This document shows, in pieces, positions 404 through 29,605 of a DNA stretch of 64,000 bases. Origin of the DNA: Salana multivorans (GTDB taxonomy: Bacteria; Actinomycetota; Actinomycetes; Actinomycetales; Beutenbergiaceae); NCBI RefSeq assembly GCF_003751805.1, contig NZ_RKHQ01000001.1:2046001-2110000 (forward strand). The letters run 5' to 3'. The notes under the pieces are model-generated. The model was not told the DNA's origin. It did not search any database and was given only the letters and a program-made list of their open reading frames with translations. The stretch's first letter is position 1; every line of letters starts with the position of its first letter. The position numbers and the translations under genes are program-made.

Positions 404-2602
404 CTAGCGCGTGGTGCGCCGTGCCCTGCGCGAGCGGAGGACCAGGCCGGTTCCGACCGCCGCGGCCAGGAGGGCCGGCAGGAGCACGGCCATCGGGTTC
501 GCGCCGGTCGAGGGGAGCGGCCGGCCGTCGTCGTCCGTCGGGCTGGGGCTGGGCGACGCTGCGGACCGGGTGACGACGAACTCGGCCGATCCCTCCCGGT
601 CGGAGGTCACGCCGGTCAGCGTGATCGTCCGCGTTCCGGGAGCGACCTCGGGGACGGTGAAGGCGTGGCTGACGGCCCCGTCGGCGTCGGCCGTCACCAG
701 GACGGCCCCGTCGTTCGTGGAGCCGACGACCCGAACGGTCTCGTTCGGGAGGAAGCCGGTCCCCGTGACGGTCTGGGCCTGGCCGATCTCGCGGGTCGCG
801 TGCTCGAGGTGCACCCCGACCTCCGGGGCCGTGACCTTGATCCGTGCCGTGTCGTCCGCGCGCACCCCGTCGACCGTGAAGCCGACGGTGGTCACCGCGG
901 TGTCGATACCGGCGGTGAAGGTCGCCTCGAAGGTGCCGTCGTCGAGCGGGGTCGTCTCGCTGACGACCCCCGGCCCGTCGATCACGCTGATGTCGACCAC
1001 CTCACCCGACCCGGTGATCGGCAGGCCGGTGGTGTCGACGAGCTGGACGACGATCCGGGAGGTCGACGTGCCGTCCGCGACCAGCTCGGCGGGCGTCGCG
1101 GTGATGGACGACCCGTCCGCCCCCAGGTCGGGGACGGCAAGGAACGTGTACGACCCGATCGGGTCGCCGAGGCCCGTGACGGCGTTGAGACGCAGGGACA
1201 CGTCGACGGTGCCGGCGGGATGCGCCGGGGTGACCGCCCGCACCGTGCCGGCCGAGGCGTCCACCGTCACGTCGGTGCCGGGGTGGTCGACGTCCCCGAA
1301 GTAGACCGCCGGGACGAGGGACAGGACGAGCTGGTCCACCTCGACGGGCAGCGGCTGGTTGGCCTGCTCGCCGTTCCCCAGCCGACCGGACTCGCCGTTG
1401 CCCCAGGCGTAGATCGCTCCGTCGACCCCGACGGCGAGGGAGTGCTCGGCGCCGGCGCTCGCGGCGATGACGTCGACGTCGGGCAGGTCGACGAGCGCGG
1501 GGGAGGTCTGCGGGAGCGGCGTGCCGGTCCCGAGCTGCCCGTCGAAGTTCTCGCCCCAGGAGTAGAGCCGCCCGTCGTCGGTCCGCGCCAGGGAGTGGAC
1601 GAACCCGGCGGAGACGGAGGTCGCCCGCGCCCCGGCCGGCAGCGTGACGGCCTGGGGCGTCGTGGCGAACGGCACGTCCTCGGGCAGGCTGCCGATCCCG
1701 AGCTCCCCGGTTCCGTTGTCCCCCCACGAGTAGACGGTTCCGTCGGAGCCGACGGCGAGGGAGTGGCGGAACCCGGCGGCGACGGCCGTCGCGCTCACGT
1801 CGGGACCGAGGTCGACCGCCACCGGGGCGAGCTCCCCGTCGGTGGTCCCGGTGCCGAGCTGCCCGGCCCCGTTGCCGCCCCAGGCGTAGACGAGGCCGTC
1901 CGACCCGACGGCGAGGGAGTGCCCGTCCCCGGCGGCGACGGCGAGGGCCCGGACTCCCGGGGCCAGCTCGACGCGGACGGGAACGAGCTTGCCGACCGCC
2001 GTGCCGTCGCCGAGCTGCCCCTCGTTGTTCAGGCCCCAGGCGTAGACGGCCCCGTCGGAGCCGACGGCGAGGGAGTGCCGCGCGCCGGCCGACACGGACT
2101 CGGCCCGCACCCCGTCGGGCAGGTCGACGCGAACCGGTGCCGACTCCTCCGTCCCCGGTCCCTGCTCGGCGTTGCCGAGCTGGGCGAACGTGTTGTCGCC
2201 CCAGGCGTAGACGGCTCCGTCCGAGCCGGCCGCGAGCGAGTGCGTCCCGCCGGCCGAGATGTCGACGGCGTGGACGCCGTCCGGGAGCGCGGCGACGACC
2301 GGCGTGGAGCTGTCGGTCAGCGTGGCGTCACCGAGCTGGCCGAGACCGTTCGAGCCCCAGGCGTAGACCGTGCCGTCGACGCCGATCGCGAGCGAGTGCG
2401 TCCCGCCGCCGGAGACGTCGCGCGTGACGTCGAGCACGAGCCCCGAGAGGGTGACCTCCTGACCCCCGCTGGTCGGCCCCGAGACCGGATCGATCCGCGG
2501 GTCGGCCTCAGCGCTCGTGCCGACGAGTCCGACGGCCACGACCAGAGCCGCGGCTCCGAGGGCCCGCCGACCGGAGACCAGGTGTCTTCGGTTGCTGTTC
2601 AT
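404..2602 (-). CDS. Wall-anchored seven-bladed RCC1 propeller protein with LPSTG sorting signal
   Basis: This is a secreted surface protein of about 732 residues. ATG at 2602 is chosen because GGAGAA lies at the right distance and a signal peptide follows (hydrophobic GAAALVVAVGLVGTS, then Ala-rich cleavage region). Seven repeats of about 50 residues carry the RCC1 signature 'HSLA-x-G-x-DG-x-x-YAWG-x-N-x-x-GQLG', enough for one beta-propeller. The propeller is framed by the two halves of an IPT/TIG-like fold (DPVSGPTSGG before it, VYFGD...TPAHPAGTVDV after it). Two further Ig-like domains follow, the first resembling Big_1/invasin. The C-terminus is a classic sortase signal: LPSTG, a hydrophobic segment and RSRRARR. 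No sortase is in the window. The function is probably adhesion or ligand display; this is inference. Confidence 0.85.
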   Translation of the reverse strand: MNSNRRHLVSGRRALGAAALVVAVGLVGTSAEADPRIDPVSGPTSGGQEVTLSGLVLDVTRDVSGGGTHSLAIGVDGTVYAWGSNGLGQLGDATLTDSSTPVVAALPDGVHAVDISAGGTHSLAAGSDGAVYAWGDNTFAQLGNAEQGPGTEESAPVRVDLPDGVRAESVSAGARHSLAVGSDGAVYAWGLNNEGQLGDGTAVGKLVPVRVELAPGVRALAVAAGDGHSLAVGSDGLVYAWGGNGAGQLGTGTTDGELAPVAVDLGPDVSATAVAAGFRHSLAVGSDGTVYSWGDNGTGELGIGSLPEDVPFATTPQAVTLPAGARATSVSAGFVHSLARTDDGRLYSWGENFDGQLGTGTPLPQTSPALVDLPDVDVIAASAGAEHSLAVGVDGAIYAWGNGESGRLGNGEQANQPLPVEVDQLVLSLVPAVYFGDVDHPGTDVTVDASAGTVRAVTPAHPAGTVDVSLRLNAVTGLGDPIGSYTFLAVPDLGADGSSITATPAELVADGTSTSRIVVQLVDTTGLPITGSGEVVDISVIDGPGVVSETTPLDDGTFEATFTAGIDTAVTTVGFTVDGVRADDTARIKVTAPEVGVHLEHATREIGQAQTVTGTGFLPNETVRVVGSTNDGAVLVTADADGAVSHAFTVPEVAPGTRTITLTGVTSDREGSAEFVVTRSAASPSPSPTDDDGRPLPSTGANPMAVLLPALLAAAVGTGLVLRSRRARRTTR

Positions 2603-2622
2603 GATGGTTCTCCAGTGTTCAC
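2599..2622 (-). other. Possible 7-codon leader frame from a duplicated ribosome-binding site
   Basis: Just upstream of the RCC1 gene the ribosome-binding site and start codon are duplicated with about 20-bp spacing. The upstream copy reads CTGGAGAATCATCGTGAACA and the downstream copy CTGGAGAACCATCATGAACA. The upstream GTG at 2622-2620 opens a frame reading VNTGEPS whose TGA overlaps the RCC1 ATG as ATGA. This could be a translated, coupling leader peptide or a chance result of a short duplication. Confidence 0.3.
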
Positions 2623-3057
2623 GATGATTCTCCAGCATGTGGATAGAGGGGCGCCTCGACGTCGCCCGTTGCGGCGACGGGGCAGTGAACGGCGCTAGAC
2701 AAGGGTAGGGCTGGGTGTCGGCGGCTCCTGCCGTCGTGCGGTACCTCCATGAAGGAGCGAACCCAGGTTCCCTGTGCTCGCGCGTGGTGGGCCGACCGTC
2801 AGCGGCATCCTCTGTCCAGGTGGTGCTCGCGTCTCTGGATGACCTCACGTGGTCGGCGCGGTGTCGCCGCCGGTGATGGGTGTCGCCTCCGTCTCTGCCT
2901 GGTCTCCCTCAGGTCGGGCACGGGCGGGGCGTCACCCCCGGTGCCGTGAGGTGTTCGCCCTCCGCCGACGGCTCGGTGCCCTCCCGCGTCGTGACGTCCG
3001 TCCTGTCGCATCTCCTCTCGTCGTCGCTGGTGCCTGTCCTGGCTCGACCCCCTCGGC
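2603..3057. other. Intergenic region upstream of the RCC1 gene
   Basis: These 455 bases separate the RCC1 start from the 3' end of the histidine kinase, both on the minus strand. The region should hold the RCC1 promoter. I see the duplicated ribosome-binding site at its left edge but no convincing -35/-10 pair, and no credible gene on either strand. Confidence 0.6.
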
Positions 3058-23301: not shown

Positions 23302-23955
23302 TCACGGGGGATCCCGCCAGTCCGATCTGCCTGCGCCGGTAGCGCCGGGTTCCACGTCCTCGGGCGTGGACGCAGTGCCTGGCGGCGGTGTCGTGCGACG
23401 GGGGTTCGTCCGGGTGGGGAGGAGCGCGAGGGTGACGAGCGCGATGGACCCGACGACGATGATGGGGGATCTCGCTGCGGTGAGGATTCTGCCGCCGGCC
23501 GGGACGCTCGCGATGACGATGCGAGCCTGGGTGGTGACGTCGTAGACGTCGGCGTCGGGTGAGGGGTTGGCGTCTCCCTTGAGGGTTGCATACCACCGGT
23601 CTCCGCGGTGTTCCAGTGAGGTGATGCGGTGGGTGACGAGCGTGGCGGAACCGGGGATGGGGACGGTGACGACGTCGCCGGTGCGCAGATCTTCTCCGTC
23701 GCGGGGGGCCGTGATGACGACGGCGCCGACGGGCATGGCAGGCGACATGGAGTCGGAGACCAGCACTACGGGACGCACCCCGAGGACTAGGGCCGTGATC
23801 ACGCCGATCACGCACAGACTTCCGAGGATCGCGGCCGCGTTGAGCAGCCATCCGGCCACTCGGTGTAGTCGCTCGGCCCTGCTGCCGTTCGCCGCTGACT
23901 CGTCCGGGCGCGGTCTGCCCCGGTCAGCGCCGGTGCGGCGCGCCACGATCACCAT
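23302..23955 (-). CDS. sipW: ER-type signal peptidase I, SipW-like
   Basis: This membrane serine protease of 217 residues removes signal peptides. ATG 23955 overlaps the end of the upstream RCC1 gene. A basic N-terminus precedes a membrane segment (residues 35-60). The catalytic Ser is in SDSMSPAMPVGAV (Ser69), and VTHRI (His109) takes the place of the Lys of ordinary bacterial enzymes. That Ser-His dyad defines the archaeal/ER/SipW group. A box with GDRWYATLKGDANPSPD follows, then a C-terminal membrane segment and a Thr/Pro tail. In Bacilli SipW processes TasA-like fibre proteins. Here the same operon encodes a TasA-like protein and another protein with a similar unusual cleavage site, so a dedicated processing role is likely. 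Confidence 0.88.
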   Translation of the reverse strand: MVIVARRTGADRGRPRPDESAANGSRAERLHRVAGWLLNAAAILGSLCVIGVITALVLGVRPVVLVSDSMSPAMPVGAVVITAPRDGEDLRTGDVVTVPIPGSATLVTHRITSLEHRGDRWYATLKGDANPSPDADVYDVTTQARIVIASVPAGGRILTAARSPIIVVGSIALVTLALLPTRTNPRRTTPPPGTASTPEDVEPGATGAGRSDWRDPP

Positions 23956-25178
23956 TCCATGACTGGTGTGGGTGTTCCGAACGAGCTCCGGTAGGTGAAC
24001 TCCCCGGTGCCGAGCTGTCCCTGACTGTTGGCGCCAGCACCCGTGTAGCTTCTTGACTGGTCGAGGTAGAGGGTGTGCTGAATGCCGGGGGCTACCTTCG
24101 CCGGTGATGAATCCGGGGGAAGCGCGACGAGCGTCGGTTCTGCGACCGATGGGCCGACGTCGCCTAGTCCGAGCTGGCCAGCGCTGTTGTTGCCCCAGGC
24201 GTACAGCTGCCCTGCTTCGTTCCAGGCGAAGAAGGACAGAGCGCCCGGCGCGGCTGACAGGGGATCGCTCACGGCAGCGCCGGTGATCCCGTTCAGTCCC
24301 GGGACGTAGCCGGAGTCGGAGTCGGAACCGGGAGCTGTGTAGAGCTGCCCGGAGCTCGACCAGAACAGGATGCGGTTGGTGCCGATGCTCGCGCCGGTGA
24401 CGGTGTCGCCGGAGAGCCCGGTGATCGTGACCCCGTCGATGCCGCCGAAGATGTCGACCTCGCCGCCCCAGACGACGACCTCGCCTTCGACCACGGCGAG
24501 ACCCTGGAGAAAGCCGGCATCGGCGCTGCTCACGAACCGAGTGTCGATGCCCTGGGCCGTGACGAGTGCAGGCGGGCTGTTCGTGTCGCCTGGTCGGCCC
24601 AGGCGTCCGCCGCTGGCATCGCCCCAGGAGTACAGGTCTCCGCCCAGGGTCCAGGCGAGGTAGAAGAAGGTACCGGTCGACACCCCGACGACGTCGTCGT
24701 CGATCGTGTCGAAGAACTCCACGCGTTGCGGTGTGGGACCTCCACCGACGATGTCGGGACGGCCCCAGGTGTAGACCCCACCATCCCGGGTCAGCGCGAT
24801 TCCCGTGTCGAGTCCGGCGGAGGCCGAGACCACGGTCTGATCGTCCGGGAACTCCACCAGGCCGGGAGTGGGGTCGATCCCGCTGACTGACACATTCGTG
24901 CGACCGAGTCGCCCCAGGACGTTGCTCCCCCAGGTGAACAACTTGCCGTCGTCGGAGACCCCCAGGGACCAGTCCCGGCCCGCCGCCACGTCGACAAGGC
25001 CGACCTGGCGGGCCGGGATCGATCCCACCACGGACCGCACCTGCCCGGCGTCGGTGAACCTGGCGGAGGCCTCGTCGATCGGCAAGAGCACGAGGCACAG
25101 GAGCAGCGCCGTCAGCGCCCCGCACGCACTCACGACCCTGCGACGCAGGCCCGTCTCGGAAGCCGCCGGCCCCTTCAC
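23949..25178 (-). CDS. Secreted RCC1-type propeller protein with SipW-type signal
   Basis: This protein has about 409 residues and starts at GTG 25178, which overlaps the upstream stop as GTGA. The signal region (VVSACGALTALLLCLVLLPI, then ASARFTD) ends in A-R-F-T-D, like the A-x-F-[ST]-D sites cleaved by SipW enzymes. Seven divergent RCC1-like repeats follow (KLFTWGSNVLGRLG, GVYTWGRPD, DLYSWGDASGGRLG, QLYAWGNNSAGQLG), ending YTGAGANSQGQLG; several blades have lost the His-Ser-Leu motif. There is no C-terminal anchor. The stop overlaps the signal peptidase start, so the two are made together. The role is unknown; a secreted component or modifier of the TasA-like assembly is an inference. Confidence 0.8.
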   Translation of the reverse strand: MKGPAASETGLRRRVVSACGALTALLLCLVLLPIDEASARFTDAGQVRSVVGSIPARQVGLVDVAAGRDWSLGVSDDGKLFTWGSNVLGRLGRTNVSVSGIDPTPGLVEFPDDQTVVSASAGLDTGIALTRDGGVYTWGRPDIVGGGPTPQRVEFFDTIDDDVVGVSTGTFFYLAWTLGGDLYSWGDASGGRLGRPGDTNSPPALVTAQGIDTRFVSSADAGFLQGLAVVEGEVVVWGGEVDIFGGIDGVTITGLSGDTVTGASIGTNRILFWSSSGQLYTAPGSDSDSGYVPGLNGITGAAVSDPLSAAPGALSFFAWNEAGQLYAWGNNSAGQLGLGDVGPSVAEPTLVALPPDSSPAKVAPGIQHTLYLDQSRSYTGAGANSQGQLGTGEFTYRSSFGTPTPVMEW

Positions 25179-25693
25179 CGTGCACCCCGAGACCGGAGCC
25201 GTCCCAACCAGCTCCCCGCCAGCACCAGCGCGGCGGCGGCGGCGATCGCCCATACGACCTCGGCGCCGGTCGTCTCCAGCGGCGGCCCACCGTCCGGTGC
25301 GGCGCCTGCGCACGCCGCGACCTCGGTCGCGGCGAACGTCAGGAGCGACTCCCCGCTCAGTCCCTGTGCCTCGTTTCCCGTCTCGCGCGGCAGGTGCGCC
25401 GTCACCGTCACCGTGACGTGCTCGCCCGCGCCGACGACGGGCAGTGTCTGCTGACCGCACTCACGGACCTGTTGTGGTGAGGATGCGTAGGAGATCTCTA
25501 TGGGCGGGGTCACCTCGAACAGCTCGCCCGACTCGACGTGATCGAAGCGCACCACGACGTCAACGCCGGAGGAGTTGGTGACCTCAACCGTTCTCGAGAC
25601 AACGTCTGCGGGGCGCAGGACGTCGATCGAGATCGTCGAGGGTGATGCGATCACCCCGACGGCCTCGATGTCGGCATCGGTCCGGTTCACCAT
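25175..25693 (-). CDS. Small anchored protein of the TasA-like operon
   Basis: This protein has about 172 residues if ATG 25693 is the start. The core reads as a beta-sandwich (SRTVEVTNSSGVDVVVRFDH, then VTVTVTAHLPRETGNEAQG) with two Cys pairs' worth of cysteines (RECGQQ, VAACAGA). The C-terminus has LETTG, a hydrophobic segment and RLRSRGAR, an LPXTG-like wall-sorting signal. No signal peptide is visible, which is odd for an anchored protein. The residues just upstream in frame (VLTAGTTSLS) look like the TasA-family strand that follows a signal peptide. Either the start is wrong, a frameshift has removed the signal, or it is secreted with a partner. It lies 23 bases after the TasA-like gene and overlaps the RCC1 gene. 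Confidence 0.7.
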   Translation of the reverse strand: MVNRTDADIEAVGVIASPSTISIDVLRPADVVSRTVEVTNSSGVDVVVRFDHVESGELFEVTPPIEISYASSPQQVRECGQQTLPVVGAGEHVTVTVTAHLPRETGNEAQGLSGESLLTFAATEVAACAGAAPDGGPPLETTGAEVVWAIAAAAALVLAGSWLGRLRSRGAR

Positions 25694-25716
25694 GCTGAGG
25701 GAGGTAGTGCCGGCGG

Positions 25717-26274
25717 TCAGGACAGCGTCTGCGTCGCGGTGAACGGCAGGTCGATCTGGATCTCCTGACCGGCGATCTCCACCGGGGCGTCACTGCTGAC
25801 GGTGATCGCGAGCGTGAGTGTGTGCCCGGTCGCAGTCGTGCCGTTCGCGCCGATCGCGAAGTCGGTGAACGCCGCCTCGGTCAGGGGGCCCGAGTACAGC
25901 TCCGTGCTCGTCGCGGCATCGGTGATCGTCAGCTCGAGCTCGTCCTGGAGCAGGTCATCGCCAGTGGCGTCGTTGTCCACGACCGGGATCGCCAGCGCCA
26001 GCGCCGCGTTGACTGAACCCGAGTTGTAGACGACGAGATCCTGAGTGACCTCGACTCCGGGGGCGAGCACGTCGCCGTCCTCGAACACGATCACGTACGG
26101 ATCGGGGCTACCGTCCTGGTCGGCGTCGAACTTCAGGTCCAGCGTGCCCGCCGTCAGAGTCGTGCGCACCGTGCCGGAATCCGAGAACAGGGCCATCGAG
26201 CCGCCGACTGCCATCACCGCAACAACACCAGCGGCCGCGAGAATACGAAGACGCGGCGAGATCGAGATACTCAT
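25717..26274 (-). CDS. TasA/camelysin-like protein with SipW-dependent signal
   Basis: This secreted protein has about 185 residues; GAGGAG lies eight bases before ATG 26274. The signal peptide (LRILAAAGVVAVMAVGGS) ends MALFSDSG, the A-x-F-[ST]-D SipW-dependent cleavage site. TTLTAGTLDLKFD follows, the first strand of the TasA/CalY fold. The rest alternates beta strands with Asp-rich loops (NSGSVNAALALAIP, a late FTATQTLS end). In Bacilli such proteins form biofilm matrix fibres; many actinobacterial members are uncharacterised. It is the first gene of a four-gene operon that also supplies its probable peptidase. Confidence 0.82.
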   Translation of the reverse strand: MSISISPRLRILAAAGVVAVMAVGGSMALFSDSGTVRTTLTAGTLDLKFDADQDGSPDPYVIVFEDGDVLAPGVEVTQDLVVYNSGSVNAALALAIPVVDNDATGDDLLQDELELTITDAATSTELYSGPLTEAAFTDFAIGANGTTATGHTLTLAITVSSDAPVEIAGQEIQIDLPFTATQTLS

Positions 26275-27256: not shown

Positions 27257-29260
27257 CTAGTCGGCCTCGGTACCCGTTCGCTGGCGCTTCGCGGCCAGGG
27301 TGAGCCCGGCCCCCAGTGCGAGGGCGGTGGCGGCCAGCGTGAGCCAGTAGAGGAGACTCGCACCGGTCGTGGGCAGATCCTGACCCTCGCCCGACTCGCC
27401 CGACTCGCCCGACTCGCCCGACTCGCCCGACTCGCCCGACTCGCCCGGCATGCCCGACTCGCCCGGCGATGGCTCGGGCGCCGGTTCGAGTTCCGGAGCG
27501 ACCACCGAGGCCTGCGACAGGGTTGCGGTCGCGGTGATCGCCTCGCCGAGTGGATTGGTGAACACCGCTCGATAGGTTGCCGCGCTGTCCGCGTCGGGGA
27601 TGGTCGTGGTGAGAGTCGTGGTCGTCGTCAGGTTCTCCGTCGTCGCCGAGACGTCGTCGAGGACGGTGACCCAGTGGCCGTCCTCCAGTCGCTGCCAGGA
27701 GGCGGCAGGGGCCTCGTCAGCGTTCGCTGCAGCGGTGAGGATCACGACCGCGGCGGTGTCGCCGGTGGCGTCGGCAGGGTGGAGTGTGACGGCGGGAGAG
27801 GTTCCGAAGGCGAACCCGTCGGGGAAGGAGATCAGCTCGGCGCCGTTGCCAAGGACTCGGATGTCCACGAGGCCGGATGGATGAGGGGGCGACGTCACCT
27901 GAAGGGCTCCAGGGGCAACTGGTGTCACGGACGCCGCCTCCACGTCGCCGAAGAACACCTGCATCAGCATTGGCGAGGGCAGGTTCACCGCGACCGGGCT
28001 GGGGTGGCTCTGCACCTGTCCGTCACCAAGGCGTCCGTACCGCCCGGCACCCCAGGCGTAGGCACGGCTCTCGTCCTCGTCCAGTGCCAACGAGTGGTAG
28101 GACCCCGCGGCGATCTGCGTGATGGTCGCGCCCGCCATCGCCCCGGAGGTGTCGACAGCGACGGGGCTCAGATAGCCGCCCTCCTGCCCCGTACCGAGCT
28201 GTCCCGAACCGCCCCAGCCCCAGCCGTAGATCCGTCCCGCGTCGTCCAGGGCCAAGGAGTGATAGGTGCCGGCGGCGATCTGGGTGATGGTCTTGCCGGA
28301 CAGCACCCCGGAGGTGTCGACGGCGACCGGGATCCGATGACTCTCATCCTGTCCGGTGCCGAGCTGCCCCGGCCCGCCCCAGCCCCAGGCGTAGACCATG
28401 CCCTCGTCATCGAGCGCGAGCGAGTGGCCGCGCCCGGCGGCGATCTGGGTGATGGTCTTGCCGGACAGCACCCCGGAGGTGTCGACGGCGACCGGGATCG
28501 GCACGTTCTCGGCCTGCCCGGTATCGATACCGAGCATCTCGTGGTCGCCCCAGGTGTAGACCCTTCCCTCGTCGTCGAGCGCCATCGACATGGTGCTGTC
28601 GGTGGCGATCTGGGTGATGGTCTTCCCGGACAGCGCCCCGGAGGCGTCGACGGCGACCGGACTCAGCTCGGTCCCGGTCTGGCCGTTGCCGAGCTGCCCG
28701 GAGGCGCCCCGGCCCCAGGCGTAGACCCTTCCCTCGTCATCGAGCGCCAGGGAGTGCTCGCGCCCGGCGGCGATCTGGGTGATGGTCTTGCCGGACAGCA
28801 CCCCGGAGGCGTCGACGGCGACCGGACTCAGCTCGGTCCCGGTCTGGCCGTTGCCGAGCTGCCCGGAGGCGCCCTGACCCCAGGCGTAGACCTTGCCTTC
28901 GTCATCGAGCGCCAGGGAGTGGTAGGCGCCGGCGGAGATCTGGGTGATGCCCCTGCCGGACAGCACCCCCACCGCCTCGATCGCGGTCGGTGTCGCCTGT
29001 AGGTCGGCTTGACCGTTGCCGAGCTGCCCGAGGCTGCCGTTCCCCCAGGAGTAGACCCGCCCGAGGTCGTCCAGAGCCAGCGAGTGCTCTTCCCCGGCCG
29101 ACAGCGAGACGAGCCTCCCGCCGGGGACCGAGAGCGAGATCACGGTCCCGCCGGCCGTGGGGCCGTGATCCGGCGTGACGACGGCTCCGGCGGGAGCGCC
29201 TCCCGCAGCAAGAGCCACGCTCGTTCCGGCGACCAGCCAACCGCGCAACCACATGCGCAT
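27257..29260 (-). CDS. Wall-anchored RCC1 propeller protein with LPTTG sorting signal
   Basis: This surface protein has about 667 residues; GGAGG precedes ATG 29260 and a signal peptide ends near GAPAGAV. The N-terminal strand VTPDHGPTAGGTVISL and the segment VFFGDVEAASVTP...TSPPHPSGLVDIRV together make one IPT/TIG-like domain split by the propeller. Between them are seven RCC1 repeats of about 60 residues, 'HSLALDDEG-x-VYAWG-x-x-x-x-GQLG', with near-identical spacer 'SGVLSGKTITQIAAG'. A further Ig-like domain, a PGESG-type spacer and LPTTG with a hydrophobic segment and KRQR follow. The blade repeats are so alike in DNA that recent expansion is likely. It probably acts as an adhesin. Confidence 0.85.
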   Translation of the reverse strand: MRMWLRGWLVAGTSVALAAGGAPAGAVVTPDHGPTAGGTVISLSVPGGRLVSLSAGEEHSLALDDLGRVYSWGNGSLGQLGNGQADLQATPTAIEAVGVLSGRGITQISAGAYHSLALDDEGKVYAWGQGASGQLGNGQTGTELSPVAVDASGVLSGKTITQIAAGREHSLALDDEGRVYAWGRGASGQLGNGQTGTELSPVAVDASGALSGKTITQIATDSTMSMALDDEGRVYTWGDHEMLGIDTGQAENVPIPVAVDTSGVLSGKTITQIAAGRGHSLALDDEGMVYAWGWGGPGQLGTGQDESHRIPVAVDTSGVLSGKTITQIAAGTYHSLALDDAGRIYGWGWGGSGQLGTGQEGGYLSPVAVDTSGAMAGATITQIAAGSYHSLALDEDESRAYAWGAGRYGRLGDGQVQSHPSPVAVNLPSPMLMQVFFGDVEAASVTPVAPGALQVTSPPHPSGLVDIRVLGNGAELISFPDGFAFGTSPAVTLHPADATGDTAAVVILTAAANADEAPAASWQRLEDGHWVTVLDDVSATTENLTTTTTLTTTIPDADSAATYRAVFTNPLGEAITATATLSQASVVAPELEPAPEPSPGESGMPGESGESGESGESGESGESGEGQDLPTTGASLLYWLTLAATALALGAGLTLAAKRQRTGTEAD
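27393..27446. repeat. 9-bp tandem repeat encoding the Glu-Ser-Gly spacer
   Basis: Six perfect copies of GACTCGCCC lie in tandem, with one more after an interrupting GGCATGCCC. Read on the minus strand they encode (Gly-Glu-Ser)n before the LPTTG signal. Slipped-strand length change would keep the frame and alter spacer length. Confidence 0.9.
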
Positions 29261-29605
29261 CGATCCTCCAGACCACGCCACGACGACCACGCCCCTACTT
29301 CGCAACCCGAGTGGGACGCGTTGGCCCCGCTGACGGTCGTCAAGTTACCGATACTGCGCGTCCTAGAATTGCGCGCCTGTGGCTACCCGCGATGGCCCGC
29401 GGGGGAAACCCTGACCTTGGGTCGTCGGGACGAGTGCGGACCGACGAGTGTCGATGTGGAATGTCCAGCGGGCCGCGGCAGTGCCGATGGAGATAGCCGG
29501 TCGATACGCCTTCTCGTGGAGGCTGGCTACTCCGGACGTGCGTCGCCGTCCGATGGACGAAACCGACATCCCGCACGGCGCGCGGGTGTCTCGTGAGGAG
29601 AATCC
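29261..29605. other. Divergent intergenic region between two surface-protein genes
   Basis: These 345 bases separate the minus-strand RCC1 gene from the plus-strand DUF5979-type gene and should hold both promoters. A TAGAAT box at 29364-29369 could be a -10 element for the plus strand, but it has no good -35 partner. No gene is supported here. Confidence 0.5.

Follow-up and report, generated by a model that had tools for sequence, protein, structure and literature searches.

The 64,000-nucleotide stretch of the Salana multivorans genome analysed here (the window) harbours, at 23302-26274 on the minus strand, a compact cassette of four genes in ~3 kb. A TasA/camelysin-like protein of 185 aa is encoded at 25717..26274 (−; ATG at 26274, stop at 25717), followed by a small LETTG protein at 25175..25693 (−), a seven-bladed RCC1-type propeller of 409 aa at 23949..25178 (−; GTG at 25178) and a SipW/ER-type signal peptidase with a Ser-His pair at 23302..23955 (−; ATG at 23955 or GTG at 23952). 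Between the stop of the TasA-like gene and ATG 25693 of the LETTG gene lie 23 bases; the LETTG stop and the RCC1 start at GTG 25178 overlap by four bases, and the RCC1 stop overlaps the peptidase start by seven (ATG 23955) or four bases (GTG 23952). The original prediction, which had read four minus-strand genes with one 23-base gap and two stop-start overlaps from the letters, was correct in this respect, as all of its open reading frames were recovered. An Rfam search near the operon returned no riboswitch or other RNA, and a promoter search at the operon returned no sigma-70-like promoter.

The TasA-like protein, whose signal ends ...GGSMALFSDSGTVRTTLTAGTLDLKF (SipW-type signal SMA-LFSD), scored above the cut-offs of both PF12389 (29.2 bits; cut-off 22.5) and the SipW-type signal model TIGR04088 (21.8 bits; cut-off 19), as expected for the TasA-like protein with a SipW-type signal that had been predicted. 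Scores were below cut-off for the models of B. subtilis TasA (NF046066; 15.4 bits, cut-off 450) and BsaA (TIGR04090; 24.1 bits, cut-off 60). Its structural model, of low confidence (pLDDT 67), has TasA (5of2/5of1) as best PDB match (E value 5.9e-5; TM 0.5), which lends weak support to a TasA jelly-roll fold. Counterparts in the Cellulomonas and Cellulosimicrobium cassettes described below are 61-62% identical.

The peptidase exceeds the cut-off of TIGR02228, the ER/archaeal type (65.1 bits; cut-off 51.85), and falls below the equivalog cut-off of NF046067, the model of Bacillus SipW proper (39.7 bits; cut-off 190). Its catalytic Ser (SDSMSP; SxSMxP) and His (VTHR), together with a downstream Asp, are invariant among its relatives, so that its assignment as a Ser-His signal peptidase holds. 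In the host genome, which has 3.9 Mb and is placed by its relatives in the order of Agromyces, merely two genes surpass the TIGR02228 cut-off, and each of them lies beside an RCC1 gene.

The RCC1 protein, with the N-terminus ...DEASARFTDAGQVRS (signal ASA-RFTDAGQVR), scored above the cut-offs of PF00415 (109.9 bits; cut-off 21.7) and PF25390 (154.5 bits; cut-off 150). Its AlphaFold model displays seven blades (pLDDT 78.5; pTM 0.79), and its best PDB matches by Foldseek are UVR8 and RCC1 (TM ~0.7), in agreement with the seven-bladed RCC1-type protein originally described. The fold is thus shared with eukaryotic RCC1/UVR8, yet identity to these is ~23%, the window propeller is secreted, and signs of a Ran or UV-B function are absent. 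Residues 27-51 were modelled with low confidence, and the N-terminus is probably a flexible tail.

Two other RCC1 proteins are encoded in the window. In one (404-2848, −), an invasin-type D3 domain and an LPSTG wall anchor accompany the RCC1 propeller, and no SipW gene adjoins it; the other (27257-29305, −), ~1 kb upstream of the cassette, is a large protein with GESGES repeats and an LPTTG anchor. Both carry ordinary signals. Elsewhere in the host genome, an RCC1-like protein of ~289 aa, in which a signal peptide is not evident, is encoded at G000:C2:322862-323650 (L105 4833-5702).

The LxxTG protein and its start near the TasA stop

The small protein ends in LETTG, a hydrophobic stretch and a basic Arg tail (RLRSRGAR). 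An LxxTG tail is present in all of its homologues, among which that of Agromyces is 37% identical; on NF058582 the protein scored below cut-off (21.4 bits; cut-off 27). A signal peptide was found neither in the protein nor in the frame upstream of its start. The homologues in Cellulomonas (L139), Cellulosimicrobium (L140) and Microbacterium (L141), in which the mature-like domain and the LxxTG tail are conserved, have no signal peptide either, and the signal-less form is a feature of the window's subclade. Counterparts in two cassettes of another family (L104 and L137) carry a Sec-like signal, as do those in many propeller-free SipW operons. Of the LETTG-anchored protein of the original prediction, the sortase-type tail was therefore retained, while an exported, wall-anchored product is doubtful, because the export signal is absent from the window and three relatives.

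The gene may start at ATG 25693 or at CTG 25720, the latter overlapping the stop of the TasA-like gene (CTGA). In the window (25693-25730), L139 (5369), L140 (5303) and L141 (5511), the LxxTG genes all start in or just past this stop, in the form of GTGA, CTGA or an ATG ~9 bases on. A programmed frameshift joining the two genes was rejected as a general mechanism, since the frame relation is −1 in the window, L139 and L140 yet +1 in L141, and since a slippery site was not apparent. In other loci SipW and its LxxTG companion are fused in a single reading frame (L138 5308-6573, −; also L092, L095 and L096), thus supporting a functional link between the two.

Recurrence of the cassette across genomes

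The full TasA-LxxTG-RCC1-SipW order was found again in Cellulomonas (L139), Cellulosimicrobium (L140), Microbacterium (L141) and a genome from another family (G276). The last harbours two cassettes: a four-gene one in the window order (L104) and an expanded seven-gene one (L137 6810-12103, −), which, besides a propeller and an LAATG protein, encodes several proteins with SipW-type signals and in which most genes overlap by ~4 bases. In Agromyces (L103; G370), whose peptidase is the best non-self match to that of the window in an order-wide search, the three genes LxxTG-RCC1-SipW run up to the contig end. A genome-wide propeller scan yielded four loci, in Cellulomonas sp. ACRRI, Cellulosimicrobium cellulans DE0111, Microbacterium sp. 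Leaf320 and Agromyces, and the propeller relatives that adjoin SipW in four other genera are 43-47% identical. A second copy in the host genome (L009) is rearranged: its TasA-like gene is oriented divergently from the SipW-RCC1 pair, whose propeller has the signal ETVAAFQDPG. As the window and L009 propellers are only ~27% identical, L009 is not a recent duplication of the window cassette.

RCC1-SipW linkage was further found in L174, L175 and L176, which came from the top-ranked SipW loci, and in a set of 80 further SipW loci that were taken by similarity rank to the window peptidase, with loci already known as linked left out and ~6 kb read on each side. An RCC1-type propeller was nearby in five of the 80 (L184, L189, L204, L230 and L253), while 0.84 were expected by chance (P value=1.7e-3 with a deliberately high RCC1 density; 1e-5 when the density was set closer to that observed). 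Several divergent propellers of linked loci were confirmed by Pfam RCC1 models. Linkage thereby extends to at least five families of the order; in the class-wide set, none of the 40 SipW loci read had an RCC1 gene. Propeller relatives were not found on viral contigs, and on plasmids only distant RCC1 proteins were found.

Locus L173 (G084), where an RCC1 gene lies beside a weak SipW-like gene and the signal (SFTG) has no Asp, was not counted. Weak RCC1-HMM matches in L182, L186, L202, L219 and L233 were likewise discarded, as these are other SipW-signal proteins that were matched via the signal only. They belong to a small SipW-signal protein family (TAAWTDSEYAR-type) that adjoins SipW in relatives and is unrelated to RCC1.

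A tree built from 98 SipW sequences, 16 of them partnered by a propeller, required four label changes for this pairing, as compared with 15.1 after shuffling (none of 500 shuffles was as low), and the sequences from the window, L009, Agromyces, Microbacterium, Cellulomonas and Cellulosimicrobium fell into one group. This was a quick tree in which near-copies favour clustering; thus the clustering speaks for a durable SipW-propeller pairing and not for any number of origins. The proposed cassette is sustained: across several families, its propeller is again found together with SipW and TasA-like genes, and the gene order is unchanged. Judged by gene order and spacing, the genes for the TasA-fold protein, the LxxTG protein, the RCC1 propeller and the Ser-His peptidase are one tightly packed, partly overlapping, conserved unit.

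The signal of the propeller

Past the hydrophobic core, all linked propellers with a readable N-terminus, the doubtful L173 left out, carry a TasA-like site of the form x-[ASG]-x-[FWYL]-x-D. With cleavage points placed by analogy with TasA, the sites read ASA↓RFTD in the window, TSA↓SFTD in L103, TEA↓AFTD in L141, TSA↓AWAD in L104, TTA↓AYTD in L137, TMA↓AFLD in L174 and TSA↓GFTD in L189, comparable to SMA↓LFSD, TFA↓AFSD and TLA↓AFTD in TasA-like proteins. An automated scan detected the site in 12 of 16 linked and two of 39 unlinked RCC1 proteins (P value=3e-7; Fisher's test); among the four linked proteins that were missed, three have the site on inspection, the automated signal finder having failed, and the fourth is L173.

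The same sites satisfy the ordinary A-x-A rule of SPase I, and TIGR04088 matched neither the window propeller nor ten relatives, so that these signals do not formally belong to the SipW type. The predicted SipW-type signal on the propeller is hence upheld as to its TasA-type site, and left ambiguous by the A-x-A fit and the missing TIGR04088 match. It is also conceivable that an ordinary Sec signal is cut by the housekeeping SPase I and that the operon position reflects chance or loose co-regulation, a view in line with A-x-A type sites such as ASA-R and with the TIGR04088 result. RCC1 genes also lie far from SipW in seven family relatives (G002, G013-G015, G017, G019 and G020), for which reason genome-level co-occurrence alone was not used as evidence. 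This explanation is unlikely, however, as the linkage recurs in at least five families and clusters on the SipW tree, unlinked RCC1 signals hardly ever contain the x-[FWYL]-x-D site, and the two other RCC1 proteins of the window (404-2848 and 27257-29305) have ordinary signals. For the original proposal that one peptidase serves the TasA-like protein as well as the propeller, gene linkage and the site motif provide good support, while cleavage by this enzyme is putative.

In ungapped alignments at six loci, the residues past the site resembled the locus's own TasA strand better than shuffles did (combined P value=5e-5). The resemblance is strong in L009 and L104, weak in the window and not significant in L141 and L137; similarity of the propeller N-termini to the strand of B. 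subtilis TasA is poor. Such unevenness across loci would also fit a propeller that acts as a separate secreted or surface matrix or adhesion protein, cleaved by SipW and co-regulated with the fibre genes yet standing outside the fibre. A shared peptidase would by itself suffice for the linkage and the signal type, and other SipW clients look unrelated in sequence to both TasA and RCC1. What speaks against a separate protein is that in four of the six loci the likeness to the TasA strand continues beyond the cleavage site and that the propeller N-terminus is predicted with low confidence, as probably a flexible tail. This alternative is possible, and we hold it to be the less probable account.

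Comparison with known SipW systems

In B. subtilis, TasA and TapA are processed by SipW; residues 28-38 of TasA serve as donor strand, and the N-terminus of TapA resembles this strand and starts fibres (PMC9674648, PMC10151520). The cassette shares with tapA-sipW-tasA a SipW-type peptidase and a TasA-fold protein with a SipW-type signal (PMC9674648, PMC10151520). In both, moreover, the peptidase gene is overlapped by that of a secreted accessory protein with an N-terminus similar to the TasA strand. The cassette differs in that the accessory is an RCC1 propeller rather than the Ig-fold TapA, in the additional LxxTG protein and in gene order. The propeller does not belong to the TapA sequence family or Ig-fold core, its likeness to TapA being limited to placement and N-terminus.

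Secretion and polymerization of BsaA in C. perfringens require SipW, and the sipW-bsaABCRSD operon likewise encodes additional secreted proteins next to a SipW-dependent matrix protein of the TasA/BsaA type; in contrast, a propeller is unreported there, BsaA polymerizes without sortase, and a two-component system is part of the operon (PMC7395162). The sipW-calY1-calY2 operon of B. cereus also pairs SipW with camelysin-like clients, and PF12389 matches the window TasA-like protein, yet it has two camelysins, and neither a propeller nor an LxxTG protein is mentioned (PMC10151520). Propeller-free actinobacterial clusters (for example, L079, L095 and L096) share the TasA-like proteins, the LPXTG companion and SipW, whereas they lack the RCC1 gene, and their companion is either fused to SipW or equipped with a normal Sec signal. 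Most SipW operons do without a propeller, which is thus dispensable for the core system.

A proposed role for the propeller

By analogy with these systems, we favour, at a probability of roughly 0.55, a surface-fibre operon of the SipW/TasA type whose propeller would be processed by SipW and attached to the TasA-like fibre. The propeller is probably a dedicated SipW client attached via its TasA-like N-terminal strand, like TapA in Bacillus. Both signals, that of the TasA-like protein and that of the propeller, would be cut off by the peptidase at T/S-x-A↓x-[aromatic or Leu]-x-D. Cleavage would free an N-terminal strand on both proteins, comparable to the strand with which Bacillus TasA and TapA complete the following TasA subunit. 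In this way the propeller could start or cap the TasA-like fibre as TapA does, displaying its seven-bladed binding surface at the fibre end, and wall attachment of the fibre would be provided by the LxxTG protein via sortase. Taken to its full extent, with the propeller as the TapA counterpart bearing a SipW-cleaved donor strand and a ligand-binding ring at the fibre end, and with the signal-less LxxTG protein, its translation overlapping the TasA stop, exported as the anchor, the model is possible but less probable. Counting against a fibre partner are the unmatched TIGR04088, sites that fit SPase I, the uneven strand likeness and the signal-less LxxTG protein.

The stop-start overlap with the peptidase gene is like that of tapA-sipW, where the overlap hinted at functional association (PMC10151520), and would also suit a cell-wall chaperone or assembly factor for SipW clients that is not itself part of the fibre. 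Such a role is highly improbable, given that the propeller has no anchor or membrane segment beyond its signal and that a large seven-bladed ring is unusual for a chaperone.

In a literature search conducted largely outside subscription journals, SipW and RCC1, or camelysin and RCC1, were not found together, which agrees, within that coverage, with the earlier remark that a propeller with a SipW-type signal coupled to its peptidase was unfamiliar. Taken singly, the ingredients, namely SipW/TasA operons, LxxTG companions and secreted RCC1 proteins, are known or widespread; what appears new is their combination, with a putative SipW-type signal on the propeller, and this suggests that the propeller is a so far undescribed fibre partner. 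TasA fibres are known mainly from Firmicutes. The finding would mean that actinobacterial SipW/TasA operons have repeatedly acquired a dedicated propeller partner, and the cassette would offer a small genetic unit for studying the start or tip of actinobacterial TasA-like fibres and the function of secreted bacterial RCC1 proteins.
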